Assembly (NCBI RefSeq): GCF_011301715.1
Contig: NZ_CP049870.1
Coordinates: forward strand, 1,488,001-1,552,000
DNA from: Sphingomonas sp. HDW15A
GTDB lineage: Bacteria > Pseudomonadota > Alphaproteobacteria > Sphingomonadales > Sphingomonadaceae
Direction of reading: 5' to 3'
Length of the DNA: 64,000 bases
The notes under the pieces are model-generated. The model did no database searches. It worked only from the letters and a program-made list of their open reading frames with translations, and was not told the DNA's origin. The first letter of the stretch is position 1. Each line of letters opens with the position of its first letter. The translations under genes and the position numbers were made by a program. Positions 317 to 49,022 of the stretch are shown piece after piece.

Positions 317-778
317 TCATGGTTTCGGTTCGCCCATGCCCGCACAGTTCTCTGGCGGCTCGACGGTCCAAGCATTGTTTGTCAGAATCCATTTTCCGTC
401 GATCCGCATCAGGCTGAAGCTATCCACCCCGCAGTGCGAGCGCTTGCCGTCCACGTCGAAGGAATATGGCGCCCAGAAATGCGCGATGTCGCGGTGAACG
501 AGGATCGTCGGATTCCAGTATCGCTCCGTGTTGCGGCTGGTGGAAGTCTTCATCCGCTCGACGGATTCCTTCGTGGTTCGCCGGCGTAATCCCTCTCGTC
601 CCTTCACATAGCCCTGGATGAAGGCGGCCCCATCGTCATGCGTAAGCCGATCCAGCTCGGGCGCGTCATTGCTGTTGATCGCCGCGATAAACGCGTCGAC
701 CGCAGCCTGGACTTCGGCCTTCTCATCCGTTGGCGCCAATGCCGCGAGGGCGAGGAGGGCAGAAATCAGCAACGTCAC
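317..778 (-). CDS. NTF2-like (SnoaL/DUF4440-type) secreted protein
   Basis: This protein of about 153 residues has a hydrophobic N-terminal signal ([13 protein letters not shown]). It is followed by a cone-shaped NTF2-like fold typical of DUF4440/SnoaL proteins: a helix with [12 protein letters not shown], then alternating strands ending in the W-rich segment [12 protein letters not shown] chose the GTG at 778 because it overlaps the stop of the carboxylase gene (ATGTGA arrangement), which implies translational coupling, and because it begins directly at the signal peptide. Such proteins are either small-molecule binders or enzymes; the substrate cannot be read from the sequence. Confidence 0.75.
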
Positions 779-2375
779 ATCCGGAATACGCCAAACTGCG
801 GCCGTTCGGGGATTGGCGCGTTGAGGCACGCTGCAAAGGCGAGGCCAAGCACATCACGCGTCTGCGCCGGGTCGATGATTCCGTCATCCCACAATCGCGC
901 GGTGGCGTGCCACGGATTGCCCTGCGCCTCGTAATCCTCGCGGATTGGCTGCTTGAAGGCCTCGGCCTCCTCCGGCGTCCATTTTTCGGCGTCGCGGTGA
1001 ACGGTGGCAAGGACACTTGCCGCCTGCTCGCCGCCCATCACGCTGATCCGGCTATTGGGCCAAGTATACAGGAAGCGTGGGCTGTAGGCGCGGCCGCACA
1101 TTCCGTAATTGCCGGCGCCGAAGCTTCCGCCGATGAGGATCGTGACCTTCGGCACTGTCGCGGTCGCGACGGCAGTGACCAGCTTCGCACCGTGCTTGGC
1201 GATTCCTTCCGCCTCATATTTGCCGCCGACCATGAAGCCGGAGATGTTCTGGAGAAACAGCAGCGGGATCCGCCGCTGGCAAGCGAGCTCGATGAAGTGC
1301 GCGCCTTTGACTGCGCTCTCGCTGAAAAGGACGCCGTTGTTGGCGAGAATTGCGACCGGCATTCCCCAGATGTGGGCGAAGCCGCACACGAGGCTGCTTC
1401 CGAACAACGGCTTGAACTCATGAAATTCGGATGCGTCGACGATCCGCGCGATGATCTCGTGCACGTCATAAGGCGCACGCACGTCTTGGGGATGATGGAA
1501 TAGAGTTCTTCCGCATCGAACGCTGGAGGGCGCGCCTCGCGAAGCTCGATGTTGGCGCGAGTCTCACTACCAAGATGCGAAACAATGTCGCGGACGATGG
1601 TCAGCGCATGCTCGTCATTTTCGGCGAGATGATCGACGACGCCGCTCTTGCGCGCATGGAGGTCGCCGCCACCCAAATCCTCTGCGGAAATCTCTTCACC
1701 CGTGGCCGCTTTCACCAACGGCGGACCGGCAAGGAAGATGGTCCCTTGCTCGCGAACGATGACGCTTTCATCGCTCATTGCCGGAACGTAGGCGCCACCA
1801 GCTGTGCAACTGCCCATGACGCAGGCGATTTGCGGGATGCCGTGCGACGACATCTGCGCCTGGTTGAAGAAGATGCGTCCAAAGTGATCGCGGTCGGGGA
1901 AAACCTCGGATTGGTGCGGCAGGTTCGCGCCGCCGCTGTCGACCAGGTATATGCACGGCAGCCGATTCTGCTGGGCGATCTCCTGAGCGCGGAGATGCTT
2001 CTTGACCGTCATCGGATAGTAAGTGCCACCCTTCACCGTCGCGTCGTTGCAGACGATCATCGCCTGTCGCCCCGACACCCGGCCGATCCCGGCAATCATG
2101 CCCGCGCCCGGCACTTCCCCATTGTAGAGATCGAAAGCGGCCAACTGCCCGATTTCAAGGAATGGCGAGCCAGGATCCAGCAGCCGCTCAACACGATCAC
2201 GGGGAAGCAACTTGCCGCGCGACACGTGGCGTTCCCGGCTTTTTTCGTTGCCGCCGAGCGCCGCCTTCGCAACGTCGGCGCGAAGCTTCTCCGCAAGGCC
2301 GCGATTGTGCGCCGCGCGCGCCTTTGCCTCCTCGCTTGTCAGGTCGATCTTGGTGTCCAATCGCGGTGCGCTCAT
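775..2375 (-). CDS. liuB: Methylcrotonyl-CoA carboxylase, carboxyltransferase (beta) subunit, frameshifted
   Basis: This is the carboxyltransferase half of biotin-dependent 3-methylcrotonyl-CoA carboxylase in leucine breakdown. The first reading frame carries the N-terminal half with the acyl-CoA carboxylase signatures ([34 protein letters not shown]). The second frame carries the C-terminal half ([43 protein letters not shown]). The two join at the forward-strand GGGG run at 1488-1491, where one extra base restores the family sequence [15 protein letters not shown] and a protein of about 533 residues, the normal family length. The start at 2375 (MSAPRLDTK) follows isovaleryl-CoA dehydrogenase and a cytochrome in the same direction. 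The break is probably a base-calling error; a genuine frameshift would abolish the enzyme. Confidence 0.9.
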
Positions 2376-2411
2376 GACCGCTGGCCTAGCCGCAGATCGA
2401 CACTTTGCAAA

Positions 2412-3257
2412 CTATTGTGGCGCTCGGGCCCGACCGGCGCGTGCGAGGACGTAGCCGACTATCGCCTGGCGCTCGGATGGCGTCAGCTGCGAGAAGGAAT
2501 ATTTGGCGACCGCGCTCATCAGGCCAAGGTCGGGCTTCGACTTCCCCTTCCCGGTGCGCAGCAACGTCTCGAGCTCGGCCTCGCTGTACGTTCCGGCGAT
2601 GTCGAGATTCGGCGTGAAGCTCTTGTAACCCTGCAATTGGCCGTTGTGACAGCCGCTGCAGACCATCCGGGCCAGTTGGCGACCTCGTTCATGCTGCGGG
2701 CCGACGTCAGGCGGGGGGTTATCGCGATAACGGATCGTCTGCGCCGCCGAATGGCTGATCCCGCCTTCCTTGTTTTCTTCGAGAAAGCCCTTGCCCTTGC
2801 GGATCGGGGGCAGCTGCTGTCCAGCCGGCTTGTGGGAGCGAAGGAAAGCGATGATTGCCGCCATGTCCTGATCGCTTAGAAACTGGAATGATTCTGCCGG
2901 CATGAACCAGAGTTGGCGGCCGTCTTTCGGCGTGCCTTGTCTTAGCAGGCGCTCGAAATCGGCATCGCTGTAATCTGCCAGAAGAAGGGTGATGTTCGGC
3001 GCATTCATGTCGCCAAATTCCGGGTCGTCCGCCGTCACATTTTCGCCCTGAAGATTCTCGCCGTGACAGCCGGTACAGTCGAGGACTCGGGCAAGCCTTT
3101 TGCCATGCGCGATCTTGGCGGCTTCATCCTTGTAATCGGCGCCGTCGAAGGTGACAGCGGCAGAAGCCGGAGGCACAGTCGGTTCGGACTGTTTCGGTTC
3201 CGATTTGCCGCACGCCGCAATCACCGCCGCAGCGAGCAGTATCGATAATTTGCGCAT
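2412..3257 (-). CDS. Di-heme c-type cytochrome lipoprotein
   Basis: This is a 281-residue exported protein with an N-terminal lipoprotein signal (lipobox VIAACG), a Pro/Ser-rich linker and two class I cytochrome c domains. The first heme site is CTGCH near residue 61 with later Met residues as possible axial ligands (FMPAE). The second is CSGCH near residue 200. It is predicted to be a membrane-anchored periplasmic electron carrier. It sits between the isovaleryl-CoA dehydrogenase and carboxylase genes, spaced 37 and 54 bp from them and on the same strand, so it may be co-transcribed. Its redox partner is unknown. Confidence 0.88.
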   Translation of the reverse strand: MRKLSILLAAAVIAACGKSEPKQSEPTVPPASAAVTFDGADYKDEAAKIAHGKRLARVLDCTGCHGENLQGENVTADDPEFGDMNAPNITLLLADYSDADFERLLRQGTPKDGRQLWFMPAESFQFLSDQDMAAIIAFLRSHKPAGQQLPPIRKGKGFLEENKEGGISHSAAQTIRYRDNPPPDVGPQHERGRQLARMVCSGCHNGQLQGYKSFTPNLDIAGTYSEAELETLLRTGKGKSKPDLGLMSAVAKYSFSQLTPSERQAIVGYVLARAGRARAPQ

Positions 3258-3311
3258 TGAAAGCCCCCTTCAAACGCGAAGGTTGGGCTTACTACACATC
3301 AAGGTCGACGA

Positions 3312-4472
3312 CTATGCGCCGATCAGCTCACGGCCAATGAGCATCCGCCGGATTTCGTTGGTGCCGGCGCCAATGTCGAGCAGCTTGGCATCGCGCATGT
3401 AGCGCTCGACCGGCCAGTCCTTGGTGTAGCCGGCACCGCCCAGCGCCTGCACGGCCTCCCCGGCGACCTTGAAAGCGCTCTCTGACGCCAGCAGGATTGC
3501 GCCCGCGGCGTCGAAGCGCGTCGTCTTGCCCGCGTCGCATGCCTTCGCGACCTGATAGACGTAGGCCCGAGCCGAATTGAGCGCGACGTACATGTCAGCG
3601 ACCTTGGCCTGGATAAGCTGGAAGCTGCCAATCGTCTTGCCGAACTGCTTGCGCTCCCGAACGTAGGGAATGACGACATCAAGGCAGGCCTGCATGATAC
3701 CGAGCTGGATTCCGGCGAGCACGGTGCGCTCATAATCGAGACCGCTCATAAGCACAGCGACTCCGCCATTCTCCGGCCCCATGATGTTCTCAGCCGGAAC
3801 GAAACAATCATCGAACACGAGTTCGCAAGTGGGCGAACCGCGCATTCCGCATTTGTCGATCTTCTGGCCGATCGAGAAACCCTCCATTCCCTTTTCGATC
3901 AGGAAAGTCGTAATGCCCTTGCTCCCGGCGTCGGGCGAGGTCTTGGCGTAGACGACGAGCACGTCGGCATAGGCACCGTTGGTAATCCAGAATTTTGTGC
4001 CGTTGAGACGATAGCCGTTGCCCGATTTCTCGGCCTTTAGCTTCATGCTCACTACGTCGCTACCCGCGCCTGCCTCACTCATCGCAAGCGCTCCGACCTG
4101 CTCACCGCTGATCAGGCCTGGCAAATACTTCTTCTTCTGCTCGTCGTTGGCCCAGCGGCGAACCTGGTTGACGCAAAGGTTAGAGTGCGCGCCGTAACTT
4201 AAACCAACCGAAGCCGAAGCCCGCGCAACTTCCTCCTGCGCGACGACATGCTCAAGGTATCCAAGGCCGAGCCCGCCCCACTCTTCCTCCACCGTGATGC
4301 CATGCAGCCCGAGATCGCCCATCTGTGGCCACAGTTCTATCGGAAAGCGGTCCTGCTCATCGATCTCGGCCGCGATCGGCGCAATCTTGTCACGAGCGAA
4401 ACGCTCCGTCGTCTCGCGGATTGTAGCAGCCATCTCGCCAAGGTCGAATTCCAGGCCGGGCATGTCGCTCAT
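3312..4472 (-). CDS. liuA: Isovaleryl-CoA dehydrogenase
   Basis: This 386-residue FAD-dependent acyl-CoA dehydrogenase oxidises isovaleryl-CoA to 3-methylcrotonyl-CoA in leucine catabolism. Family motifs are present throughout: [27 protein letters not shown] (FAD/substrate loop), [10 protein letters not shown], and the C-terminal [19 protein letters not shown]. Glu248 in [11 protein letters not shown] corresponds to the catalytic base position typical of isovaleryl-CoA dehydrogenase; most straight-chain enzymes have the Glu elsewhere. The length is normal and the start MSDMPGLEF is preceded by GGAGAG. The carboxylase that uses its product is two genes downstream. Confidence 0.93.
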
Positions 4473-4524
4473 TCAACGCTCTCCTCGACAGCGCGCCTAG
4501 CACCCCCCGCTCGCGTGAAACAAG

Positions 4525-4998
4525 CTAGCCTTCGTGCCTGTGCTCAACTGGCGGCGGAGTCTCGCCCGGCTTGGGCGCAGCAGTGAGCGGATGCGCGGCA
4601 CCACGGTGACATGTGTAGCAAGTGACCTTCGACTTGCTCCATTCGGTCACCTTGAAGTCCTGCTCGTTGATCCGGCGAACCATGTCGAGCATCGCCCGGG
4701 CAACGAGCTTTTCTTTCATGGCGTCCGACGCGAAGTCCATCGTCTCCCGTGACTGTCCTACATGGCAAAAGGTGCATTTCACGCCGAGCGACGACGACAT
4801 CATCTGCATCACGCCGATCAGGTTCTGCCGTGGAATTCCCATCGGCAAGACCTTGAGGTTCTTGGCACTGGGCTCCGCGGACGAAGCAGGCGCAGCAGTT
4901 GGCGGCGGCGCCGTCGTCTGCTGCGCCGCGACCGCGGCGGCGAGGAATGCGGCGCTTGCCGCGGCGAAGGCCAACCGGCCGAAGACAGTCCCTGTCAT
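4525..4998 (-). CDS. Photosynthetic-reaction-centre-type c cytochrome family protein
   Basis: This exported protein of about 157 residues carries two c-heme motifs, CTFCH (about residue 76) and CYTCH (about residue 126). The layout LPMGIPRQNLIGVMQMMSSSLGVKCTFCH is that of the short cytochromes related to the photosynthetic reaction centre cytochrome subunit. The ATG at 4998 is preferred because it begins directly at the signal peptide (AFAAASAAFLAAAVAAQ). A Pro/Ala-rich linker follows. It is expected in the periplasm. It is divergent from the thiolase gene and precedes isovaleryl-CoA dehydrogenase on the same strand. Confidence 0.82.
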   Translation of the reverse strand: MTGTVFGRLAFAAASAAFLAAAVAAQQTTAPPPTAAPASSAEPSAKNLKVLPMGIPRQNLIGVMQMMSSSLGVKCTFCHVGQSRETMDFASDAMKEKLVARAMLDMVRRINEQDFKVTEWSKSKVTCYTCHRGAAHPLTAAPKPGETPPPVEHRHEG

Positions 4999-5093
4999 TT
5001 CGCCGAGCCTAGGTACGTTGCAGAATTTGAACAAGCGGCTTCGTGGCCCTATGTGCAGTCGCAGCAATTTCACGAATCCCCCGGAGCAAAGCC

Positions 5094-6278
5094 ATGTCCA
5101 GCGATCCTGTCGTCATCCTCTCCTACGCGCGCACCCCAATGGGCGCGATGCAGGGCGCCCTGGCGGATGTGAGCGCGACCGATCTTGGCGCGACTGCTGT
5201 GAAAGCGGCCGTCGAGCGGGCGGGTGTAAATGCCGACGATATCGACCGGATCTACATGGGCTGCGTGCTTCCCGCCGGCCTCGGCCAAGCGCCTGCACGC
5301 CAGGCTGCGATCAAGGCCGGCCTTCCCAAGTCCGTCCAGGCCACCACGGTCAACAAGGTCTGCGGCTCAGGGATGCAGACGATAATCATGGGAGAAGAGG
5401 CTCTGAGGGCCGGCAATGCCGGAATGATCGTTGCCGGCGGAATGGAATCGATGACCAATGCGCCCTACTTGCTCAAGAAGCACCGCAGCGGCGCCCGGAT
5501 CGGCCACGACACTGCTTACGACCACATGTTCCTCGACGGCCTCGAAGACGCTTACGAAGCCGGGCGGGCGATGGGCAGCTTTGCCCAGTGCACCGCCGAC
5601 GATTACCAGCTGACCCGCGAAGCGATGGACAATTATGCCATCGAAAGTCTGAACCGGGCCAAGGCCGCGATCGACAACGGCGGCTTTGGCGACGAAATCG
5701 TTCCGGTGACAGTGAAGAGCCGCGCCGGCGAGACGGTCGTCGACACCGACGAGGCGCCCGGTCGCGGCCGCCCCGACAAGATTCCGCAACTGAAACCCGC
5801 CTTTGCCAAGGACGGAACGATCACCGCGGCGACCAGCTCCTCGATTTCCGACGGAGCGGCAGCTGTCGTGCTGACAACATTGTCGGAAGCGCAGGCTAAA
5901 GGGCTTGCCCCGGTTGCTACGATCGTTGCCTCCGCCGCCCACGCACAAGAACCGGCTCAGTTCACCATCGCTCCCATCGGCGCGATCGAGAAAGTCCTCA
6001 AGAAAGCCGGCTGGTCCGTCGACGACGTCGACCTGTGGGAGGTCAATGAGGCATTCGCCTGTGTTGCGATGTTTGCAATGAAGGACCTCGGCATTCCCCA
6101 CGAGAAGATCAACGTCCACGGCGGAGCGACCGCGCTTGGTCACCCGATCGGGGCGAGCGGCACGCGAATCCTCGTCACTCTCCTGAATGCCCTAAAGCAA
6201 AAGGGACTGAAGCGCGGCGTCGCCTCGCTTTGCATCGGCGGCGGTGAAGCGACGGCCGTTGCGGTCGAGCTGGCCTAA
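5094..6278 (+). CDS. Acetyl-CoA C-acetyltransferase (thiolase)
   Basis: This 394-residue thiolase condenses two acetyl-CoA or cleaves acetoacetyl-CoA. The nucleophile is Cys90 (NKVCGSGMQ), the catalytic His is His350 (GGATALGHPIGASG) and the acid/base Cys is Cys380 (CIGGGEA). GMESMTNAPYLL is characteristic of biosynthetic/acetoacetyl-CoA thiolases. The start ATG at 5094 matches family starts; the frame stays open further upstream but has no conserved sequence there. It is followed by a clear hairpin terminator. The setting beside leucine-catabolic genes fits processing of the acetoacetate end product. It could equally serve polyhydroxyalkanoate synthesis. Confidence 0.9.
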   Translation: MSSDPVVILSYARTPMGAMQGALADVSATDLGATAVKAAVERAGVNADDIDRIYMGCVLPAGLGQAPARQAAIKAGLPKSVQATTVNKVCGSGMQTIIMGEEALRAGNAGMIVAGGMESMTNAPYLLKKHRSGARIGHDTAYDHMFLDGLEDAYEAGRAMGSFAQCTADDYQLTREAMDNYAIESLNRAKAAIDNGGFGDEIVPVTVKSRAGETVVDTDEAPGRGRPDKIPQLKPAFAKDGTITAATSSSISDGAAAVVLTTLSEAQAKGLAPVATIVASAAHAQEPAQFTIAPIGAIEKVLKKAGWSVDDVDLWEVNEAFACVAMFAMKDLGIPHEKINVHGGATALGHPIGASGTRILVTLLNALKQKGLKRGVASLCIGGGEATAVAVELA

Positions 6279-6287
6279 TATCCTAAT

Positions 6288-6482: not shown

Positions 6483-6503
6483 CCCTTTGACTGACGCTAT
6501 CGC

Positions 6504-10475: not shown

Positions 10476-10476
10476 G

Positions 10477-20595: not shown

Positions 20596-21270
20596 TTAGA
20601 GCTCAATGAGCTTGTCGGGGATTTCGTTCCTGTCCGCCGCATCGCGCGGGAAATGATGGGCCAGGACCTCGCCGATCAGCGCGATTGCGGCGACAATTCC
20701 ATCGGCGGGGCGCCCGTCCTTCACATCGGCAATTAGCGCCGCCATTGCCTCGCCCCACGTTTCCGGTGTGGTGACAGCGGTGATCGCTGCGTCACCGACG
20801 ATTTCGGCGCGGTGCTCTCCCATCGACAGGTAGATCAGGACTCCGGTACGTCCTTCGGTCCGGCGTTCGGCCGCCGCCTTGAAGAGCATAATTGCTCGGC
20901 GGCGGACGCGTCGGGTCTTGGTCGCGCCGGGAGTGAGCGCGAGCCTGAGCGGCATCCACTTCATCACGAAGAGGACGAAGAGGAATTTAGCGAGCGCGAC
21001 CCCCAGTAAAAGGGTCAGCATCGCCCGTTCGCTGGGCGGTGCGCTCCAACCCATCAACAGCGCCCAAGTCCAGTCGAGCAAAGGCGGCCAAGCCGCAACG
21101 GTTCCAAGATAGAAAAACAACACCGCAACGGCGTAATGCAGGCCGACGTCGTGGTAGGAATCGCTTGTTTGCGCGGTGATCGCGATGATCTCGCCGGCCG
21201 TTCCGGTTTCCGCAACAGCAATCGCTTCGCTGACCCGCTGATGGTCGGCCTCGGATACGTCGAGTGTCAC
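20596..21270 (-). CDS. TPM-domain (TPM_phosphatase/YgcG-type) membrane protein
   Basis: This protein of about 224 residues starts at GTG 21270, which overlaps the restored stop codon of the preceding TPM gene by 4 bases (GTGA). The N-terminus (VSEADHQRVSEAIAVAETGTAGEI) is the start of a TPM/TLP18.3 domain. Two TM segments follow (HYAVAVLFFYLGTVAAWPPLL; LTLLLGVALAKFLFVLFVM). The C-terminal TPM half (AERRTEGRTGVLIYLSMGEHRAEIVGDAAI) is on the other side of the membrane. The membrane-inserted layout is that of the DUF1269/TPM partner usually found after YgcG-like proteins. Confidence 0.82.
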   Translation of the reverse strand: MTLDVSEADHQRVSEAIAVAETGTAGEIIAITAQTSDSYHDVGLHYAVAVLFFYLGTVAAWPPLLDWTWALLMGWSAPPSERAMLTLLLGVALAKFLFVLFVMKWMPLRLALTPGATKTRRVRRRAIMLFKAAAERRTEGRTGVLIYLSMGEHRAEIVGDAAITAVTTPETWGEAMAALIADVKDGRPADGIVAAIALIGEVLAHHFPRDAADRNEIPDKLIEL

Positions 21271-22090
21271 CAGCTGCCCCTGCCCCGCCACCGCCAAACG
21301 AGCCCCCGCCGAAGCCACCGAAACCACCCCCTCCTCCGCCGAAACCGCCGAAACCTCCGCCGCCGCCCCAGCCGCCGCGTCCGCGCGAAGCATGACTGAG
21401 GGCCTCCAGGCCCCACAAGACGACAACTGGGTCGATGCCTCCACGCCGGCGTCGGCTCTGGTAGCGCCGGCCGCCCCGAGTCATTCCGTTGATACCGCCG
21501 ATAATCATGAAGAAGACGAAGACTATGACGATGACAGGCAGTAAGCCGACATCGTCTTGGCGATCACGTGCGCGGTTTTGCGCCGCCTGCGCGCGCTTAG
21601 CCGCTTCCTCGGGAGGAAGCTCGAGTTGCTGGATAATGGCATCGGCGCCGGCGACGATCCCGCCGCCCATGTCTCCAGCCTTGAACCTCGGCAGGATCGC
21701 CGAGCGGATAATCGTTCCGGCCATCGCATCGGTCAGATAGTCGTCCGCGCCATAACCGGTCGCAATCCAAACCTTTCGCTCGTTTGGTGCGACGAGCAGA
21801 AGCACGCCGGTGTCAGTCTGTTCGTCGCCAATGCCCCATTTGCGGCCAAGGTCGTTGGCGTAAGGCTGGATTTCCTGACCCCCGAGACTTTTGACAGTCA
21901 CCACGACCAGCGCGCGCCCGCTGCGATCGTTGAAGGCGGTGAGCTTGCCAGTGAGGTCGACTTGCTGTGCGGGGGTAAGCAGGTCCGCCTGATCCAGGAT
22001 CGGGCCGGCCGGGCGTTCCGGAAGTTGCGCCGCGGCCGCGCCGGCGGCGAAGAAAACCGCCAGCCAAAGGGCCACAAGCCAGCGGAACAT
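21267..22090 (-). CDS. TPM-domain (YgcG-like) secreted/membrane protein, frameshifted at C-terminus
   Basis: It has a signal peptide (MFRWLVALWLAVFFAAGAAAA), a periplasmic TPM domain (LTGKLTAFNDRSGRALVVVTVKSLGG, KWGIGDEQTDTGVLLLVAPNERKVWIATGYG), one TM helix (VIVIVFVFFMIIGG) and a Gly/Phe-rich tail. The uninterrupted frame runs past the expected end into unrelated residues. One extra base in the CCCC run at 21277-21280 (forward strand) restores the family ending GGGGAGGSW plus stop at 21267-21269, about 274 residues. It starts 1 bp after lemA, and LemA/YgcG pairs are a known conserved association. Confidence 0.85.
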
Positions 22091-26338: not shown

Positions 26339-26401
26339 GGGAGGCTTCTGTTGCCCGGCGCCTCCCCTGCCGCTGGAATCCCCTTCTGTTGCCCGGTGGG
26401 G
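26339..26401 (-). terminator. Tandem hairpins with identical loops after the tmRNA
   Basis: Reading the minus strand, two stem-loops follow the tmRNA. The first pairs CCCC (26398-26401) with GGGG (26380-26383). The second pairs GGGAGGC (26360-26366) with GCCTCCC (26339-26345). Both enclose the same 14-base sequence CCGGGCAACAGAAG. The second is followed by ACCTTCCCCTTTT, which suits a terminator. The duplicated loop is unexplained. Confidence 0.5.
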
Positions 26402-26692
26402 TCCGACCGCGCTTTTGTCATTGTAACTTCAGACCGTTAGGCCGTCAGTTACGCAGCAATTGCGAGCGCCTCGTTATCGTTGGCACTTGTGAAATGAGCC
26501 GTTGCGGTGGTCTCATACCGATCGGCAACCGGGCCTTTACCGCACTCGTCGATCCTGTTTCGCCCCATCAGCAACGGCGGAACCCCGCTCGCGTCCCGCC
26601 GCTGCTGGTGGAGGCGCCGGGGTACTGCCCCCGGGTCCGAAATGCTTATTCCACCCGATCGTCTACCGACGTAGCCGGTTGCCCGGCTCCGC
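26402..26692 (-). ncRNA. ssrA: tmRNA, circularly permuted two-piece alphaproteobacterial type
   Basis: The permuted order is visible on the minus strand. First comes an acceptor piece with an AGCCGG-GCAA-CCGGCT hairpin and a tRNA-like end GGCGCCTCCACCA (CCA ending at 26606). Next is a linker whose CAGCAGCGGCGG folds back on its complement and is cut out on maturation. The coding piece then begins GGGGCGAAACAGGATCGACG. The tag frame starts at a GCC resume codon (26482-26484), encodes ANDNEALAIAA and stops at 26449-26451. Tags of this ANDN...AA form are alphaproteobacterial. tmRNA with SmpB rescues stalled ribosomes and marks products for proteolysis. The outer ends are approximate. The acceptor-stem 5' strand appears one G short. 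Confidence 0.92.
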
Positions 26693-26693
26693 C

Positions 26694-26722
26694 AATCTAG
26701 TCCTTTCAAGGGTCATCTTCAA
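26694..26722 (-). promoter_or_regulatory. Candidate promoter of the tmRNA
   Basis: On the minus strand TTGAAG (26717-26722) and TAGATT (26694-26699) are separated by 17 bases, placing the transcript start just before the first acceptor-piece hairpin. Identified by eye from consensus similarity and position. Confidence 0.45.
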
Positions 26723-26836
26723 GAAGTTGACAAAATCGTCTCGGGCGCGGAACCGTTGCGGCGGCGATGGGTTGGAACGGGTCTAAACCACCCAATTTGG
26801 CGGCTCATCGCCGTCGACAACAAGGGGATGAATGCA

Positions 26837-28388: not shown

Positions 28389-29189
28389 TTAGGAAAATGG
28401 CACGATCTTGTTGGCCGAATCGTGCCCGATGTCGGCCCGTCCGCCATATGCAATTCCCGAACGCTCACACCAGTCGACTATGACGCGCTCCTCGTCGCTC
28501 CCAAAATCCGGTTCATTTTCAATCACGTCGCTGACACGGCCGAGACGCAATCTGCGCACCTTGCGAACGTCGGCGTTGCTGGTGATGTGGAACATCGAGC
28601 GGTCCGTACGGTAAAGATGTTCCCCAACATCCTCGACGATGAGTTCGCGTCCCGCAAAGTCCGGCTGCAATTCTGTCCCCAGAAAATTTGAAAGCACGGT
28701 CAAGTTGAAGGCAAATGCCGGTCCGTCGAGCCCCGCTTCTAGTCCTGAGTCGCTGCGCTGCAGCAACCAGTCCAGTGCGCGGTCGATCGCCTGCTCGCCG
28801 CCGTTTCGCAGGACATCTTGGGGCATCGGCCCGTGCGCGACCTTGAGCCCAGATTTATGAAAAGCGGCAAGCAGGAAGCCCGCATCGCTGTAGCCGAGAT
28901 AGGTCTTGTGTCGTGCTTCGTCCGGCAGGTCGGCCACCGCCGCAAGTGCAATCCGGTTCGAGCCATAACCGCCGCGCGCGAACCAGACTGCGTCGATGCT
29001 GGGATCCGCCATCACTTCGCGGAGCGCTGAGAGCCGCGCTGCATCCGGCCCGGCGAAATGCCCTTCGCTGAGGAAGCATTGCGGGTGGACGAGAATCTCG
29101 CAGCCGTCGCGCAGTGCAGCACAAGCTTGTACCTGCTCTGCAGCCTCGCGCTTCAACGTGCAGCTCGGCGCGACGATCGCAATCTTCAT
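28389..29189 (-). CDS. ldcA: Murein tetrapeptide L,D-carboxypeptidase (S66 family)
   Basis: This protein of about 266 residues is a member of the MEROPS S66 family. LdcA removes the terminal D-Ala from the murein tetrapeptide in the cytoplasm during cell-wall recycling. Seen are the N-terminal strand MKIAIVAPSCTL, WFARGGYGSNRI, the nucleophile segment YLGYSDAGFLL (Ser), a Glu in LIVEDVGEHLYRTDR, and the C-terminal His in ADIGHD. The ATG at 29189 coincides with the conserved N-terminus; upstream in-frame ATGs at 29201 and 29216 are possible. It is divergent from the Mur-ligase gene across 47 bp. Confidence 0.9.
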   Translation of the reverse strand: MKIAIVAPSCTLKREAAEQVQACAALRDGCEILVHPQCFLSEGHFAGPDAARLSALREVMADPSIDAVWFARGGYGSNRIALAAVADLPDEARHKTYLGYSDAGFLLAAFHKSGLKVAHGPMPQDVLRNGGEQAIDRALDWLLQRSDSGLEAGLDGPAFAFNLTVLSNFLGTELQPDFAGRELIVEDVGEHLYRTDRSMFHITSNADVRKVRRLRLGRVSDVIENEPDFGSDEERVIVDWCERSGIAYGGRADIGHDSANKIVPFS

Positions 29190-29236
29190 GCCACTCCCCA
29201 TTTGCAAGCCGCGCATTTCCCCATAGGGCAGCGGCC

Positions 29237-30624
29237 ATGACGACTTCCACTACCTTCTTTTGCGGTATCGGCGGCAGCGGCATGTTGCCCCTTGCGACCA
29301 TTGTCCGGGCGCGCGGTGAAAAGGTCGCCGGCTCCGACCGTTCTCTGGACGCAGGCCGGCTCGCCTCGAAATTCGATTACCTTCGTTCGCTCGGAATCCC
29401 GCTTTTCCCCCAGGACGGAAGCGGCCTGACGAAAGGCATGCGCCTTATCACCTCGGCCGCGATCGAGGAAAGCGTGCCCGACGTCGTCCGCGCCTCCGAA
29501 CTCGGGCTGGAACGCCTGACCCGTCCGCAATTGCTGGCCCAGCTCGTCAATGATGCGCAGACAAGCGTCGCCGTCGGCGGCACAAGCGGCAAATCGACCG
29601 TCACCGGCATGATCGGCTGGATCCTTCATGCCTGCCACCGCCAGCCAACGGTCATGAACGGCGCGGTGATGAAGAATTTCGTCAGCCCGTCCGCACCGTT
29701 CGCCTCGGCACTTGTCGGCGACCCGGAGTTGTTCGTCAGCGAGGTCGACGAGAGTGACGGCTCAATCGCCCTGTACCGCTCAACCGTGGCAGTGCTGACG
29801 AACGTCAGCCTGGACCACCACGGTCTGGATGAGTTGCGAAGCCTGTTCGGCGCCTTCCTCGCGCGGGCCCGGACGGCGGTCGTCAATCTCGATGATCCCG
29901 AAACGCGGGCGATGGCCGAGATCCTGCGCGATTCTGTCGGTTACGGTTTCGACAGTCCTGGCGCGGCCGTCATCGGACACAATCTTCAGCTCGGCGAAAA
30001 TGGCACGAGCTTCACCGTCCGTTCGGGCGAGAGTTCTGCCCCTGTCAAACTGCCAGTTCCCGGACGCCACAATGCCTCCAACGCACTTGCAGCGATCGGC
30101 GCCGTGCTTGCCCTTGGGGTGCCGCTGGAAGACGCCGCTTCCGCTCTTTCCCGGTTCGAAGGTCTCAAGCGCCGGCTCGAAACTATAGGAAGTGCGGCAG
30201 GGGTCACGGTCATCGACGACTTCGCACATAACCCGGACAAGATTGCCGCGACACTGGCGACACTTGCGGCGCATCCCGGACGGATCCTCCTGATGTTCCA
30301 ACCGCACGGCTACGGACCGCTCGCCAAGATGGGCGACGAACTTGCGGAGACGTTCGCGTCGGGCATGCGACCAGGCGATCGGCTTTATCTTCCTGACCCG
30401 GTCTATCAGGGGGGACGGTCGATCGCGCCCGCGGCTCGGAGTGGCTGGCGGAAGCGATCCGCGCTCACGGCGGCGATGCCATCCATGTCCCATCTCGCGA
30501 CGAGCTCGGAGGAGTGCTCGCTTCAGAGGCCGCAAGCGGCGACCGGATCGTGGTCATGGGCGCGCGCGACGACACGCTTAGCGAGTTCGCCGCCGATCTC
30601 GTCGCCAAGATCGCGTTACGCTGA
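29237..30624 (+). CDS. mpl: Mur ligase, probably UDP-MurNAc:tripeptide ligase (Mpl) type, frameshifted
   Basis: This MurC/Mpl-family ATP-dependent ligase has FCGIGGSGMLPLA at the start, the P-loop GGTSGKSTVTGMIG, SEVDESDGSI, VNLDDPETR, GRHNASNALAAIG and IDDFAHNPDKIAATL. After residue about 392 the frame degenerates. Adding one G to the G run at 30409-30414 restores YQGGTVDRARGSEWLAEAI and ends KIALR plus stop at 30622-30624, about 462 residues. MurC and Mpl are hard to separate by sequence. Divergence from ldcA, whose tripeptide product Mpl uses, favours Mpl. A murC role cannot be excluded. Confidence 0.82.
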
Positions 30625-30657
30625 CGAACTTTTTGCTACACCATGCATTCAGCGTGA

Positions 30658-31032
30658 GTGGGCGCAAACGGATCCGTGATCGGCTGGAAACTCGACAGGG
30701 AGCAGCGTCGGGCGCTTCTTGATGAATTTGATATGCGCTACGACGAACCGGTCGCCGATCACGTGACGCTGGAAGTGAAGGCTCACGCAAAGCCCCTCCC
30801 TCCCGATGTGAAATCCGCGATCGTCGGCTGGTCCGATGATGGGCGGGGCGTGCAAGCGATGGTAGTAAGCATCGACGGAATAACTAACCGGCCCGACGGC
30901 TCGACCTATCACATCACCTGGTCGCTCGCGCCGGGTCGAAAGGCGAAGGAAAGCAACGACGTGATCCGCGAGAAGGGCTGGACGCCAATCGATCCGCCAA
31001 TCCCGCTGAAGCTGAGGCCGGCCAGGTTCTGA
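30658..31032 (+). CDS. 2H-phosphoesterase-like hypothetical protein
   Basis: This 124-residue protein has an unusual pair of H-x-T motifs, DHVTLEV (near residue 40) and YHITWSL (near residue 83), each at the end of a predicted strand. That is the arrangement of the 2H phosphoesterase superfamily, which acts on 2',3'-cyclic phosphate RNA ends. The assignment is by motif only. It overlaps the following HAD gene by one base (TGATG), so the two are translated together. GTG 30658 is used; GTG 30676 is an alternative start. Confidence 0.6.
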   Translation: MGANGSVIGWKLDREQRRALLDEFDMRYDEPVADHVTLEVKAHAKPLPPDVKSAIVGWSDDGRGVQAMVVSIDGITNRPDGSTYHITWSLAPGRKAKESNDVIREKGWTPIDPPIPLKLRPARF

Positions 31033-31517
31033 TGGCGCCGCGGCTTTTCCTCGACCTTGATGGCGTGCTCGCGGACTTCGACCGCGGTGTTCACGACTTG
31101 CTCGGAATGTCCTCTGCACAATTCGAGAAACGCTTCGGTATCAGGGAATTCTGGAAACGGTTGGCGAAGGCGCCCGATTTCTACGCCCGGCTGCCGTTGA
31201 TGGCGGACGCGCGAGAACTGTTCGATGCCGTCGCGCATCTGACCCCGACCATCCTCACTGGACTGCCGCTTGGAAAATGGGCGGCTCCGCAAAAGGTGGC
31301 GTGGTGCGAACAGCATTTCCCCCGCGTCCCGGTGATCACGTGCATGGCACGGGACAAGCATCGCTTCATGGATCCAGGCGACGTCCTGGTGGACGATCGC
31401 GATCGCCACCGCGCCGCCTATGAGGCGCATGGCGTCGTCTTCATTCATCACAAAAACACGCGGCAGAGCCTCGGGGATTTGAGTTCGATCTACAGGAGCA
31501 TTGCCTTGCCGATTTAA
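31032..31517 (+). CDS. HAD-family phosphatase (5'(3')-deoxyribonucleotidase-like)
   Basis: This 161-residue HAD enzyme shows motif I DLDGVLADFD (nucleophile Asp8 and Asp10), motif II ILTGLP, the Lys motif AAPQKVAWCEQHF with a basic region, and motif IV DVLVDDRDRHR. DLDGVLADF is the signature of the NT5C group of nucleotidases. It starts inside the stop codon of the 2H-like gene, giving a coupled pair, and its end overlaps the converging gene by three bases. Substrate could be a nucleotide or a 3'/5' end phosphate. Confidence 0.85.
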   Translation: MAPRLFLDLDGVLADFDRGVHDLLGMSSAQFEKRFGIREFWKRLAKAPDFYARLPLMADARELFDAVAHLTPTILTGLPLGKWAAPQKVAWCEQHFPRVPVITCMARDKHRFMDPGDVLVDDRDRHRAAYEAHGVVFIHHKNTRQSLGDLSSIYRSIALPI

Positions 31518-32646: not shown

Positions 32647-33857
32647 GTGACGGCGATGGTAGAAGCTGCCGCAACACGTCCGCACCGTTTCGAAGACTGG
32701 CGCCTGGCGCTGCGATCGATCATCGGCTTTTGGGCCCTGTACATGGCGACGGTAGTGGTCCGGGCTCTGCTCGGTCACGATCCGGGCACGGTCCTGCTCA
32801 ACAAGTCGACGACGATCGGCGTAGGCCTCCTCCTCACCGTTCTCATCTATATCGCGATGAACCTGTTCGCGTTCCGCGGCACCTGGCGCCGCCGGGCGAT
32901 CATTGCGGTATCCGCATCCTTCCTGGCGGCCTGTGCCTTGTCCGGAATTCTCATCGCGCTCGACCGCTATCAGGAGAAACCGACCGACGAGATCCATTAC
33001 GTTACGGCCGACGGCTACGAGGTGACGGAATTCGGCGACCGCATGCGGATCGACCGGCCCGGAGAAGATCCCCTCGTCCTCAACTGGCCGAAAATCGACA
33101 AGCTGGAGCCTTGGGTCCAGTTCCGCTTCGCCGCCGACAATGCCGTCATCTGGTTCTTCTTCTTCGCGGCCTGGTCCGCTTTCTATCTCGCATTGGTCGC
33201 CCAGGCGCGGACTCATCAGTTGAGGCAGCGTGCGGCAATTGCGGAAGCCGCCGCGCAGCAGGCGCAGATCCGCGCGCTCCGCTATCAGGTTAATCCGCAT
33301 TTCCTGTTCAACACGCTCAACAGCCTCTCGTCGCTGATCATGTCCAAGCGGAACGAGCGCGCCGAAGAGATGCTGATGGCGATTTCGACGTTCTTCCGCA
33401 CCAGCCTGTCGCTCGATCCCAATGCGGAGGTGACGCTGGCTGAGGAAATTGAGCTTCAGCGACTCTATCTCGACATTGAGAAGGTGCGGTTTCCGACCCG
33501 GCTGAACGTCGAGATCGACGTCCCGGATTCGCTCCAGAAGGCCAAGCTTCCGGCACTCATCCTCCAGCCACTGGTCGAGAACGCGATCAAGTACGGCGTC
33601 TCCCGGTCAAAGGAGACCGTCACAGTCAGAATCCTCGCCGAGCGTACTTCGGAGGGGAGCTTTCGCTCACTGTAACAAATACCGGCAAGGTCGACGAAGT
33701 GCCGAGTTCCGATCACGGAACGGGGGTAGGACTCAAGAATGTCGAACAGCGGCTAAGTGCCCGCTACGGTTCCGCGGCAAGATCGCGCTTTGGTCCTCGG
33801 GCCGAAGGCGGTTATGAGGTCCATCTGGTCCTGCCGTTGGAAATCGAGAATGGGTGA
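32647..33857 (+). CDS. LytS-type membrane sensor histidine kinase, frameshifted
   Basis: The N-terminus (residues 20-190) holds four TM segments and a periplasmic loop. The His_kinase domain follows with His218 in NPHFLFNTLN and the N box LQPLVENAIKYGV. The frame then breaks at the GGGG run at 33654-33657. One added G restores GELSLTVTNTGK, DHGTGVGLKNVEQRL (G box) and an end at 33855-33857, about 403 residues. It overlaps the LytTR regulator start by 8 bases, so they form one two-component operon. GTG 32647 is preferred over ATG 32656 because AGGG sits 7 bases ahead. Confidence 0.88.
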
Positions 33858-41125: not shown

Positions 41126-41131
41126 TCGCAT

Positions 41132-42725: not shown

Positions 42726-44024
42726 TCAGCCGCGCGTATCGCCGCCGCTATTCACTTCTTCCACGGAGGCGATAGTCCCGACCGGGGCCACGCCGCCCTG
42801 GTCGAGCTCCATCCAGTCACGGAAGGGCAGGCCGTACAGCATGTCCATCACCTCGAATTCGAGGCCGCCCGGTTGCGACGTATTGCTGTTCCACAGTGCG
42901 ACGACACCGCTCCTCAATTGCGGATCGAACAGGATCAATGAGCGGTAGCCGTTAACGCCGCCGCGATGGCCGATGATCCGGTGACCGGCGTAAACATAGC
43001 TACGCCAGCCATAGCCATAGTAAGGCTGGTCGAGCCGCTCGCGGAATTTGCGCAGCCGGCCAAGCTCGTTCGGAGTCGCGACCAGCGGCGCATGAATCTG
43101 GTCGAGCACCTTCTTGTCGAGCACTTCGGGCATTCCGCCCATCTGGGCGATCATCCACAGCGCCATATCCTTGATGTTGCTGTTGACACCGCCCGCTGCC
43201 GGGACGCGATAATAGGCATCGCTGAGCTCGAGCGGCCGGCGCCCGACGGTATGCGGCCTCGCCCAGCTTGGCGAACGTTCCAGGCCCTCGCGCGTGACAG
43301 AGGCCGATGTCATCCCCAGCGGACGGAAGAGGCGATTGGCGACGACCTGCTGATACGGCTTTCCGGCGACCCGAGCGATCGCCTCGCTCGACGAATCGAA
43401 GGCGATGTTTTGGTAGCTCCAGCATGTGCCGGGCGCGCATAACGAGGCCAGCGAAGCGTACATCTGGCGAATGAGTGACGGACTTTCGCCCGCCTCCAGC
43501 TTGTCGTCGTAGGCGTTGCGGTAAAGACCGAGCCTATGGCTGAGTACGTCACCGAGCGTTGCGCGCTGTTCATTGCCTCCGGGCAGTTTCAGCGTCGGGG
43601 CATAGCGCGCAATCGGCGCACCAAAGTCGAGCTTGCCTTCTTCGGCCAGCTTAGCGGCCATCGTCCCCGCGACGCCTTTCGAAACCGATGCCCAGCGGAA
43701 GACCGTCTGCGGAGTCACTTTTTCGCCCGAATCGGCAAGCGTCTCGCCGTAGCCATTCAGGAACGTGATTCGTCCGCCTTCGACGATTCCGACGGCCAGC
43801 CCGACCATCGTCGGCTTCTCCGCCATTCGCCGCAGTCGCTCATCGAGCGCACGATAATCGATCGAGTGGCGATTCGTCGTCGATATGGAAGCGAGTTTGA
43901 CAAGATCGGGCCTGGCCTGACCCGCAGCCTGCTCGGGAGCGGCTCGCGGTCGCTGTCCGGCCAAAGCGACTGCGGCGACGACCAGCGCGAAGCCGGCGAC
44001 GCCGATCTGAAACTGACGTTCCAA
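42726..44024 (-). CDS. Serine hydrolase, beta-lactamase (class C/EstB) family
   Basis: This 432-residue exported protein has a signal anchor at residues 7-23. The motif set is S-x-x-K in WASVSKGVA, Y-x-N in WSYQNIAFD and H-x-G in IIGHRGGVNG. The segment GNEQRATLGDVLSHRLGL is the family's typical start of the active domain. It starts at TTG 44024 with GGAGG nine bases before. Homologues are esterases, D-aminopeptidases or penicillin-binding proteins rather than true beta-lactamases, and the sequence does not discriminate. Confidence 0.85.
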   Translation of the reverse strand: MERQFQIGVAGFALVVAAVALAGQRPRAAPEQAAGQARPDLVKLASISTTNRHSIDYRALDERLRRMAEKPTMVGLAVGIVEGGRITFLNGYGETLADSGEKVTPQTVFRWASVSKGVAGTMAAKLAEEGKLDFGAPIARYAPTLKLPGGNEQRATLGDVLSHRLGLYRNAYDDKLEAGESPSLIRQMYASLASLCAPGTCWSYQNIAFDSSSEAIARVAGKPYQQVVANRLFRPLGMTSASVTREGLERSPSWARPHTVGRRPLELSDAYYRVPAAGGVNSNIKDMALWMIAQMGGMPEVLDKKVLDQIHAPLVATPNELGRLRKFRERLDQPYYGYGWRSYVYAGHRIIGHRGGVNGYRSLILFDPQLRSGVVALWNSNTSQPGGLEFEVMDMLYGLPFRDWMELDQGGVAPVGTIASVEEVNSGGDTRG

Positions 44025-44176
44025 AAACCTAATCCTCCCCGTGACTTCGGTCTGTCGTTCAATGGGCTGGAACGCACAAGCAACGTCTTGGGCCGCGTGC
44101 GATGAAGCGAGTCAAGGCCACGACGAGTTGCGGCGCGCTGGAATTCGCTTTGCCGTCGCCCTAAGGATGTTCGCCA

Positions 44177-44470
44177 ATGAACTTCCTAAAGACCTTGCTC
44201 TGGATTCTCATTGCCGCCGGCCTGGCGATTTTCGCAACCGCCAACTGGACGGATGCGACACTCAGCCTTTGGGGCGGCTTGCTTCTTACGATCAAGCTTC
44301 CGTTCCTGCTATTCCTCGCCTTTCTCGCCGGCTGGCTGCCGACATGGCTGATCATGCGCGGGAAGCTGTGGCGCCTGAAAAGGCAGGGCGCGGACGGTCA
44401 TTCCGGCCGACCCGTACCGCCACCGCCGCCGGCCTCGCCCGTCGAGCAGCAGCGTGAGGATGGAATGTGA
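44177..44470 (+). CDS. lapA: LapA-domain (DUF1049) membrane protein
   Basis: This 97-residue protein has two TM helices (LWILIAAGLAIFATANW; TIKLPFLLFLAFLAGWLP), the W-x-L-x-x-R-x-x-R cytoplasmic motif, and a Pro-rich tail. Homologues recruit LapB for regulating lipopolysaccharide or are associated with assembly. AAGGA lies upstream. Its stop overlaps the pyrF start (GTG within ATGTGA), so it begins the lapA-pyrF-accD-folC block. Confidence 0.88.
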   Translation: MNFLKTLLWILIAAGLAIFATANWTDATLSLWGGLLLTIKLPFLLFLAFLAGWLPTWLIMRGKLWRLKRQGADGHSGRPVPPPPPASPVEQQREDGM

Positions 44471-45162: not shown

Positions 45163-45200
45163 GCGCTAGTCGCGCGCCGGTTCCTCAGAAAGATCCGTCA

Positions 45201-46067
45201 ATGAGCTGGCTAAGCCGCGTCCGCAACGGCATCCCTTTTCTTCCAAAGCGCCAGACGGCCGATAACCTCTGGCATAAGTGCAAGAAGTGCGAGGCGATGG
45301 TCTTCACCAAGGAGTGGGAAGACAATCTGTTCTGCTGCCCGCGCTGCGAACATCATGACCGGATCGGTTCGAAGGCCCGTTTCGAGCAGATGTTCGACAA
45401 TGGCCGTTACGAGGTCTTGCCCTCACCCGAGGTGCGCGAGGACCCGCTCAAGTTCCGCGATACGAAGCGCTACACGGACCGGATCAAGACGGCACGGACC
45501 ACGACCGGCGCCCGCGACGCGCTGACCAATGCCAAGGGTCTCATCAATCGCCGCAAGGCCGTGGTCGGGGTCCAGGATTTTGCCTTCATGGGCGGCTCGA
45601 TGGGAATCGCCGTGGGCGCCGCATTCGTGGCCGGCGTTCGTGTCGCCATTGCCAACAAGTGCCCTTACGTCCTGTTTACCGCCGCGGGCGGCGCGCGAAT
45701 GCAGGAAGGCATATTGTCGCTGATGCAGATGCCCAAGGCGACCGTTGCCCTTGCCGAGCTTCGCGAAGCCGGCCTTCCCTATATCGTGGTTCTGACCGAC
45801 CCGACGACCGGCGGGGTGACCGCGTCATACGCCATGCTTGGCGACGTCCAGATCGCCGAGCCGGACGCCTTGATCGGTTTTGCCGGCCAGCGGGTCATCG
45901 AGCAGACCATTCGCGAAAAGCTTCCCGAAGGGTTCCAGCGCGCCGAATATTTGCTCGAGCACGGGATGATCGACATGGTCGTGCGCCGTCACGACCTGAA
46001 GGACACGGTCGGCAAGCTGATCGAATATCTCACGCCGGCGAAGGGGCGGGGCAAGAAGGCGGCCTGA
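45201..46067 (+). CDS. accD: Acetyl-CoA carboxylase carboxyltransferase beta subunit
   Basis: This 288-residue subunit has an N-terminal zinc ribbon (CKKCEAMVF...CCPRCEHHD, Cys4) and the carboxyltransferase core: [64 protein letters not shown]. With AccA it transfers carboxyl from biotin to acetyl-CoA for fatty-acid synthesis. The ATG at 45201 fits the family start ([11 protein letters not shown]). It overlaps folC by one base (TGATG). Confidence 0.96.
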
Positions 46068-47287
46068 TGGCCGATTTCGCCCGCTCGGCCGATCCCGCCG
46101 TCCAGTCGGAACTCGACCGGCTTCATAAACTGTCACCGGGCGCTGACGTGCTCGGGCTCGAACGTATCAGCCGCTTGCTCGATGCTCTCGGCCGTCCGCA
46201 GGACCGGTTCCCGCCAGCCTTCCATGTCGCCGGAACTAACGGCAAAGGCTCGACCTGCGCTTTTCTGCGCTCAGGGCTCGAAGCTGCAGGCTACCGGGTT
46301 CACGTCTTCACCAGTCCGCATCTCGTTCGCTTCAACGAGCGCATTCGCATTGCCGGCAAGCTCATAAGCGATGACGCCCTCGCTGAGCTTCTCCGCGAAG
46401 TGCGCGAGGCCAGTGGCGAAATCGGACCAAGCTTTTTCGAGGCAACTACTGCCACCGCTTTCCTCGCTTTCTCGCGCAATGCCGCCGACGCCTGCATTAT
46501 CGAAGTCGGATTGGGCGGACGCCTCGACGCCACAAACGTCATTGAAAATCCCTTGGTCTGCGGAATTGCCAGTGTCGGCCGCGATCACGAACAATTTCTT
46601 GGAACCGACCTTGCGGGCATCGCGGCGGAGAAAGCAGGCATCGCCAGGCTAGGCGCTCCGCTCGTGTCGCTCGCCCAAGCCGAAGCTGCCGAAGCGGCCA
46701 TCGTCAATGTCGCGGCTGAAGTTGGCGCCACGCTGCTGCTTGAAGGACGCGATTGGCACTCCGATCCGTCCCTTGTCCCGGCACTTCCCGGCTCATGGCA
46801 AGTCAGGAACGCCAACCTCGCCTGGCAGATGCTTCAAGCGCAGCATATGCTTCCCGTCAGTGCCGAACATTTTCGCTCGGGGCTGGCGGCAGCGGCCTGG
46901 GCGGCGCGGTTCCAGCGCTTGGCCGATGGCCCGCTGACGAAGGGAATCGAAACCTGGATCGACGGCGCGCATAATCCCGATGCGGCGGAGGCGCTTGCCA
47001 GCCTGCTCGCCTGCCGGTCGCCAATGCACCTCGTGCTTGGCATCCTCGCCAACAAGGATGCGAACCGGATCGTCGAGATCCTGGCTCCCGTCGCCGCATC
47101 GCTCACTTTCGTTCCTGTGCCCGATCACCCGCATCACGACCCAAAGGCTTTGGAAGCGCGGTTCGGTGGAAGGTTGGCGGCCTCTCTGGAAGATGCGTTG
47201 GCCGGTCTTCCCGCCCCGCGCCTCATCGTCGGTTCGCTTTATCTCGCGGGTGAGGCGCTCGCGCGAAATGGCGAGCAGCCCGTCTAG
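46067..47287 (+). CDS. folC: Folylpolyglutamate/dihydrofolate synthase
   Basis: This 406-residue Mur-like ligase joins glutamate to dihydropteroate or folates. It has the P-loop VAGTNGKGSTCAFL, FTSPHLVRFNERIRI, EVGLGGRLDATNV, DHEQFLGTDLAGIAAEKAGI, the H-x-N region WIDGAHNPDAAEAL and LGILANKDA. Its ATG overlaps the accD stop codon (TGATG), so it is the last gene of this operon. Its stop overlaps that of the converging ampG gene. Confidence 0.95.
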   Translation: MADFARSADPAVQSELDRLHKLSPGADVLGLERISRLLDALGRPQDRFPPAFHVAGTNGKGSTCAFLRSGLEAAGYRVHVFTSPHLVRFNERIRIAGKLISDDALAELLREVREASGEIGPSFFEATTATAFLAFSRNAADACIIEVGLGGRLDATNVIENPLVCGIASVGRDHEQFLGTDLAGIAAEKAGIARLGAPLVSLAQAEAAEAAIVNVAAEVGATLLLEGRDWHSDPSLVPALPGSWQVRNANLAWQMLQAQHMLPVSAEHFRSGLAAAAWAARFQRLADGPLTKGIETWIDGAHNPDAAEALASLLACRSPMHLVLGILANKDANRIVEILAPVAASLTFVPVPDHPHHDPKALEARFGGRLAASLEDALAGLPAPRLIVGSLYLAGEALARNGEQPV

Positions 47288-49022
47288 GCAGTATCGCCCT
47301 GTTCAGCGCGGACTTGGTCGGCAGCCAGCACATCGCCTCCGGTCTTGCCGTTCCGGTCCCTCATCGCCGTACGGATCCATTCCAGCATGACGAATCCTAC
47401 GGCGACGAGCCCGATCATGGCTGTCATCCGAAACACCGGCGCATAGCCGATCTGCTCGATCGCCTCACCGATCGCGGCGCGACCAAGTGAACCGACTAGG
47501 AAGGTCAGCGACGACAAGAGCGCATATTGCACCGCGCTGAACTCCCGCGAGGTGATCGACGATAGATAAGCGACGAATGCCGCGCCTGCGAGGCCGCCGG
47601 CGATATTCTCGCCGGAGATGGCGATCAGCAATCGGACCATCCTGAGGTCATGTCCAAATGCCTCGAGACCGAAGGTGCGCGCGAAAGAGTCAATATAGAC
47701 GGCGCCCGAGGCAAGATCGGCATAGAGCAGGTTGCTGGCCGCAGCGACGATCGCACCGATTAGTAAGGTCGGCATCCGACCGAGCGTCGCGAACAGGAGG
47801 CCGCCGATGGCGATCCCCCCATCGTCATGAACACGCCGAAAATCTTCGACGCGAACGCGACCTCGTCACCACTGTACTTCAGCTCCTCGAGGTAGAAGGG
47901 AAAGGCGAAGCTGCCCCAGATATTGTCGGTGATGCGGTAGGAAAGAATTAGCCCCAGGACGATGATCACGCCCCAGCCGATCCGCCGCACCAGCTCGCCC
48001 AAGGGAAGGATCAATGCCGAATAGGCGTGATCGGCTGTACGCTCCCCGGCTGATACTGCGGGATCGGCGGATTTGAGCACGTGCTCGCCACGAACCTGCA
48101 TCCAGTTCAACACGGCGGCCACGATTGCGGGAAGGATTACCGTCGCGGCGACGATCCACGGCCCGTACAGCTTGGTGAAATCCCCTGCCGACGGCGGTTT
48201 GCCCGTTGCCGGATCAATATCGCCGCCCAGCATCGTGACCATGAAGCTGGCAATCATCCAGATGGCCCACGCCCAGCCGATGCCGACGATGGCGAGCCCA
48301 GCGAGCCGGTATTTCGGTTCCAGCGCTCCGGCGCTTCGAAGCGCGGTCTCTTCAGTCTCCGCGGCCGTCCGCGGCGTGTCGGGCGCGAACATTGTCGCGA
48401 ACACGGTCAGAGCCATGAAGCCGCCCATGATCCCGTAAACCAACGGCCAGCTGACGCGCTCGGAAAGCACCAGCGCCAGCGCGCCGCCGATGAGAGCCGC
48501 GATGCGGTAGCCGAACTGATAAATGGATGAGAGGATTTCGACCGGTGCGCGTTCGTCCGCAACGTCAATCCGCCAGGCGTCGATGACAACGTCCTGAGTC
48601 GCCGAGGCGAAGGCGCCAATCACTGCGACCAGTGCGAACCAGCCCAGTTGCAGGCGGGGATCGGACATCGCGAGCGCGAAGAACGTCAGGGTCAGCAGGA
48701 TCTGGCAAACGAGCAGCCAGCTACGCCTCCTGCCGAGTCCTTCCAGTCCCGGCAGGCGAACCCGGTCGACCAGTGGCGACCACAGAAACTTGAATGCATA
48801 TGCGAGGCCGATCCACGATAGGACACCGATCGTGGCCAAGTCGATTTTCCACTCGCCGAGCCAGGCGTTCAGCGTGCCGATCAGCAACGTGTAAGGAAGG
48901 CCGGCAGCAAAACCGAACACGAGCATGATGCCGGTCTTGCGGTTGCTTAGCGACGCGCGGAGAAGCCCTAGGCCTTTCGGAGGTACTGGCGGCACTCCCT
49001 TTGCCGCTGCCGTCGACGCCAT
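47284..49022 (-). CDS. ampG: AmpG-like muropeptide permease (MFS), frameshifted
   Basis: This major-facilitator protein of the AmpG family is likely 14-TM and would import anhydro-muropeptides into the cytoplasm. Visible segments include GFAAGLPYTLLIGTLNAWLGEWKIDLATIGVLSW, RRRSWLLVCQILLT, ATQDVVIDAWRIDVADERAP and SIYQFGYR. The frame breaks near residue 402. Adding one C to the forward-strand CCCCCC run at 47815-47820 restores FMTMGGIAIGGLLFATLGRMPTLL, and a C-terminal part with GENIAGGLAGAAFVAYLS follows to the stop at 47284. About 579 residues in total. Partners ldcA and mpl lie 17 kb away. Confidence 0.88.

Follow-up and report, generated by a model that had tools for sequence, protein, structure and literature searches.

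Frame losses at short G/C runs in five genes of a 64-kb window very probably reflect homopolymer consensus errors rather than pseudogenes or phase variation

In a stretch of 64,000 nucleotides (G000:C1:1488001-1552000, hereafter the window), a liuB-like gene, the first of two TPM-domain genes, an mpl-like gene, a LytS-like kinase gene and an ampG-like gene each lose their reading frame at or beside a short run of G or C bases. The locus thus raises the question of whether these five genes are pseudogenes, phase-variable genes, or genes that are intact in the organism and appear broken in the assembled sequence. The original prediction, made from the window alone, favoured base-calling error and regarded phase variation as a less likely alternative. 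Here, the five breaks were compared with related genomes, and breaks of the same kind were counted in a larger sample of the contig.

Methods

The genome studied (G000) consists of one contig of 2,340,126 bases, has a completeness of 99.05 and a contamination of 1.08, and groups with Sphingomonas and Sphingomicrobium genomes. Stretches syntenic to the window were taken from five congeneric genomes, and these share approximately 71-73% DNA identity with the window where aligned. Breaks were detected by aligning intact proteins of relatives to the DNA, with each frame scored separately. Reference ORFs were limited to those that are non-overlapping and supported, because an unfiltered ORF set produced numerous spurious breaks through shadow ORFs. 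The scan of G000 covered 864 kb out of 2.34 Mb, and the tested gene sequence within it amounted to 504 kb.

A first stretch of 464 kb, the window included, yielded 32 clusters, two of which (window 31027-31036 and 44058-44109, both net +1) were dropped by judgement in a way that favours the -1 count, leaving 30 breaks. The former was rejected because it falls in ORFs of the minus strand, across from the meeting point of two ORFs on the plus strand, and the latter because it lies upstream of a PF00144 domain that is whole in one frame. The gene that carries this domain is a serine hydrolase gene at window 42726-44024; in G014 the ORF at this place is longer, and its N-terminal part aligns to a different frame of the window, upstream of PF00144. 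A further 400 kb yielded 19 breaks, four of which are weak or N-terminal. The break called in fmt proved spurious, since the gene keeps its frame and the call came from a false N-terminal extension of the reference ORF; in both stretches, the other single-reference breaks stand as called.

Results

Each of the five genes in the window was found to lose its frame by a net -1 at or adjacent to a G/C homopolymer 4-6 bases long, as originally predicted, and the relatives' genes are intact (Table 1). Comparison with related genomes, which the original prediction had proposed, gave the break for liuB in 5/5, for mpl in 5/5, for the kinase in 4/4 (the fifth reference, G002, gave no two-frame match), for ampG in 1/1 and 16/16, and for the first TPM gene in 16/17. 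The first frame of liuB, residues 1-298, matches same-genus relatives at 83-90%, after which the match goes on in the other frame; PF01039 spans the whole length of an intact liuB relative, and conservation on the two sides of the break is 88% and 91%. In an intact relative of mpl, three Mur_ligase domains are present.

Table 1. Positions of the affected genes, of the adjoining TPM gene and of the frame losses (window coordinates).
Feature	Position	Strand	Evidence
liuB-like methylcrotonyl-CoA carboxylase beta subunit (Carboxyl_trans), in two frames	775..2375	-	Match to relatives
Frame-loss interval in liuB, containing G4 1488-1491, net -1	1486..1493	-	5/5 reference genomes
Second TPM-domain gene, adjoining the first	20596..21270	-	PF04536, E 2.8e-6; relatives
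First TPM-domain gene (TPM_phosphatase, membrane helix, glycine-rich tail)	21268..22090	-	PF04536, E 6.3e-40; comparison of start and tail across 17 relative loci
Frame-loss interval in the TPM tail, G4 runs 21277-21280 and 21283-21286, net -1	21277..21292	-	17 relative loci
mpl-like Mur ligase ORF as sequenced, C-terminus conserved in another frame	29114..30679	+	Five references, two-frame match
Frame-loss interval in mpl, G6 30409-30414, net -1	30407..30417	+	5/5 reference genomes
LytS-like histidine kinase ORF as sequenced (His_kinase; HATPase part conserved in another frame)	32647..33675	+	Four references in two frames; domains of an intact relative
Frame-loss interval in the kinase, G4 33654-33657, net -1	33646..33665	+	4/4 genomes with a two-frame match
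ampG-like PAT/MFS muropeptide permease, two ORFs (47760-49022 and 47284-47775)	47284..49022	-	Domains; relatives
Frame loss in ampG at a C6 run (G6 on the coding strand), net -1	47815..47820	-	G002 and 16/16 relatives, all at 47818-47819

The first ampG ORF contains MFS_1, and no such domain was found in the second; in the twelve best-matching relatives, a single ORF of 570-655 residues encodes AmpG. Among the five syntenic references, G002 was the only one to give the ampG break. The further relatives that gave it were the 16 processed out of 29 loci (L208-L236), the other 13 having been left out by a strand filter. An independent intact AmpG protein of 579 residues, belonging to a cluster of 19 sequences, is 95% identical over 96% of the query.

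The frame of the first TPM gene is lost in the last codons of its glycine-rich tail. In 16 of the 17 relative loci, which take in one genome twice (G009 is L054), the protein terminates with a conserved GGGGASG(S/G)W tail, whereas the window frame runs on, and the end of the relatives' tail falls -6 to +1 nt from where the second TPM gene is projected to start. A net -1 offset was listed for 16/17 loci, in two of which +1 scored equally; the break was placed at 21279-21280 in 14/17 loci and 12 bases upstream in two. The seventeenth locus, L059 (Sphingomonas daechungensis KACC 18115, NZ_CP060780.1), is itself broken and leaves the frame in the glycine-rich tail. The second TPM gene shows 53-74% identity to relatives in 17/17 loci with both genes. 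Because the tail is of low complexity and holds two G4 runs close together, the TPM break is the weakest and least sharply placed of the five.

The tested gene sequence of G000 (504 kb) gave 49 breaks, 47 of them net -1 and two net +1 or -2; without fmt the figures are 48 and 46, and the null placement, per-run comparison, run-length rates and break density below still include it. One +1 case, in a TamB-like gene, sits where two C runs lie three bases apart and two losses are possible. A G/C run of at least four bases is touched by 33 of the 49 breaks, compared with 3.1 on average, and never more than 9, in 2000 trials of random placement (for the second stretch, positions were drawn from the entire 400 kb rather than from genes alone), and an A/T run of at least four bases is touched by one break, with a null mean of 1.8. 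Expressed per run of this length, 33 of 2080 G/C runs and one of 1153 A/T runs are broken (Fisher p 6.9e-6). The break rate also rises with the length of the G/C run: 11/10061 (0.11%) for three bases, 17/1741 (0.98%) for four, 12/307 (3.91%) for five and 4/31 (12.90%) for six. Breaks occur in unrelated genes at a density of approximately one per 10 kb of tested gene sequence; this density predicts 5.5 breaks in the window, taking a round figure of approximately 57 kb coding sequence, and five were observed. Extrapolated to the whole genome, with 90% taken as coding, it corresponds to approximately 205 breaks.

The broken genes for which the intact relative scores above the NCBIfam cut-off are dnaX (two breaks), gyrA, eno, trmFO, rseP, yidC, plsY, gcvPB, pth (peptidyl-tRNA hydrolase), dnaK, typA, pdhC, pstB, and the genes for aspartate kinase and glutamate-cysteine ligase. 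The breaks in gyrA and dnaK are supported by one reference each, and those in yidC, eno, pth and plsY, as well as one of the two in dnaX, by two. Outside the sampled stretches, mutS (L200, near G000:C1 2066325-2066888) has two net -1 breaks, beside a G4 and a G5 run, and is in one frame in G018 and G014. Several of the broken genes are normally essential, and the loss of a gene set with gyrA, dnaX, dnaK, yidC and eno would be expected to be lethal. The five genes had been presented in the original prediction as a set, and this part of it does not hold, because the same lesion is found genome-wide in the sample, essential genes included, and twice in mutS. Separately, a 627-residue ORF was observed at G000:C1:1355781-1357661, the first 242 residues of which match G018 and G007 in another frame than the rest; this ORF may represent two genes fused through the loss of a base.

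The run lengths and the identity of the genes bear directly on phase variation, in which slippage in the runs would switch the five genes on and off. Such a mechanism would suit breaks that lie in homopolymers, and slippage could yield a net -1; however, the runs are only 3-6 bases long, and known contingency tracts are longer. Moreover, housekeeping genes are affected along the whole sample rather than surface or regulatory genes only, and the break rate tracks run length in general. The combination expected of contingency genes, namely long tracts restricted to surface or regulatory genes, was not found in the G000 sample. These data agree with the low rank that phase variation had been given, and leave it with a vanishingly small probability.

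No fixed codon phase or motif was found at the 17 runs of at least four bases in the first stretch, which fall into the three phases 3, 4 and 10 times (G-run background 42, 22 and 36%), nor was a coding-strand preference for G over C runs found beyond background (23 to 9, p 0.15). Absence of a fixed phase or motif argues against the possibility that the DNA is as written and that ribosomal or transcriptional slippage at the G/C runs restores the frame. Slippage of this type is reported for long runs in insect symbionts (PMC5009743, PMC3017870), and it would be in keeping with the conservation of both gene halves and the presence of essential genes among those broken. Nevertheless, the runs in G000 are short, and the same genes are in one frame in relatives, so that rescue by slippage is considered exceedingly improbable.

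As a control, G000, G018 and G007 were compared for breaks on which two or more references agree, and these numbered 17 (all net -1), one and eight, respectively. At the one such break in G018, both references are themselves broken, and thus none has two sound references; in its second stretch, G018 gave three clusters supported by one reference each, and all three are net +1 relative to ORFs of G000. The eight breaks of G007 (stretches L173-L192 and L037-L040) are net -1, seven purely and one mostly. G007, which belongs to the same genus, therefore probably carries the same kind of error less densely. In-frame stops flanked by conserved sequence were present at 2 positions among 499 best matches in G000, 3/461 in G018 and 2/389 in G007, and no excess of such stops in G000 over these two relatives was found. 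No LSU or SSU rRNA match was found in single-contig G000, and SSU was found in 0/6 genomes. A full-length match to alpha_tmRNA (RF01849) lies on the minus strand at window 26374-26726.

Ordinary gene decay, with the five genes as pseudogenes under relaxed selection, would be in line with a genome of 2.34 Mb, which is small for its order. Against decay, conservation is equal before and beyond the break, as in liuB, in-frame stops are not above the level of the relatives, and core genes are broken at a similar rate. The mixed lesions, in-frame stops and relaxed conservation by which decay would be recognised were not found in G000, and this explanation is regarded as having hardly any chance of being correct.

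Discussion

Taken together, these data indicate that the contig very probably carries uncorrected homopolymer consensus errors, and that the five genes would be the window's share of a genome-wide error rather than pseudogenes or phase-variable genes. Single bases would be missing from short G/C homopolymers in the consensus, the more often the longer the run, and such an error inside a gene would end the frame early and give the gene the appearance of a pseudogene. Enrichment at runs, a rate that depends on run length, a single direction of indel, and genes affected regardless of dispensability, all of which are expected of homopolymer errors, were observed in G000. The preference of the original prediction for base-calling error is likewise supported by the genome-wide rate, the length dependence, the G/C specificity and the broken essential genes. 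In the organism the five genes are most likely intact, as judged from the sequence. We infer from the pattern of breaks that the missing bases were lost during sequencing or consensus calling and are present in the DNA itself. The pattern is compatible with long-read data.

This reading has several parallels in the literature. Nanopore sequencing reads C/G homopolymers worse than A/T homopolymers, with deletions that increase with length (PMC8486125); assemblies have been rated high quality despite many frameshift errors (PMC9262707); and uncorrected errors produced 151-5298 false pseudogenes in R9.4 genomes (PMC8011154). G000 resembles such unpolished or long-read assemblies in its single-base homopolymer deletions, in a rate that rises with length, in many presumably false pseudogenes and in the involvement of all gene classes (PMC8486125, PMC9262707, PMC8011154, PMC12007338). 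However, in the long-read assembly of PMC12007338, bases were lost most in A/T runs and approximately half as often in G/C runs, whereas the breaks in G000 are nearly confined to G/C runs and appear already at lengths of 3-6 bases.

The two mutS breaks, at G4 and G5 runs, raise the possibility of a mutator lineage deficient in mismatch repair, in which mutS is broken, the bases are truly lost and the five genes are true recent pseudogenes. Mutants of yeast behave in a comparable way: msh2-null yeast is dominated by deletions, with an approximately fourfold growth in rate per added base, much as in G000, and in mismatch-repair-deficient yeast deletions make up 93% of events at A/T runs and 74% at C/G runs (PMC3755907). 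The original prediction had argued that because all five breaks are deletions the genes are not pseudogenes; the deletions themselves were confirmed, but the argument is weak on its own, given that mutators lacking mismatch repair likewise lose bases from runs more often than they gain them. G000 shares with such a mutator both the deletion bias and the approximately fourfold length dependence (PMC3755907), and differs from it in three respects. Approximately 200 breaks per genome (extrapolated), with gyrA, dnaX, dnaK, yidC and eno among the genes hit, would not be viable; A/T runs are not enriched; and insertions are nearly absent, with 2/49 breaks that are not net -1 compared with 26% insertions at C/G runs in the yeast data (47/49, p 6.4e-5, fmt included; PMC3755907). 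On account of the broken core genes, the unaffected A/T runs and the near-absence of insertions, the mutator is held to be very improbable, and the two mutS breaks are better read as two further instances of the same error. A further variant holds that the bases are truly absent and that the lineage, perhaps after loss of mismatch repair, lives with approximately 200 genes split at short G/C runs, the frame of each being restored by routine slippage of ribosomes or polymerase; this too is exceedingly improbable. More generally, error and real loss are told apart here by the essential genes that are broken, the lack of A/T-run enrichment, the few insertions and the lack of an excess of in-frame stops.

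If the contig carries homopolymer consensus errors, as is very probable, approximately 200 genes of G000 (an extrapolation) may have been miscalled as pseudogenes or truncated proteins, despite the high completeness of the assembly. Claims of gene loss, pathway content or phase variation drawn from this contig or from G007 need to be checked against reads first. For the five genes of the window, the annotation should read probably intact and carry a note on sequencing error.
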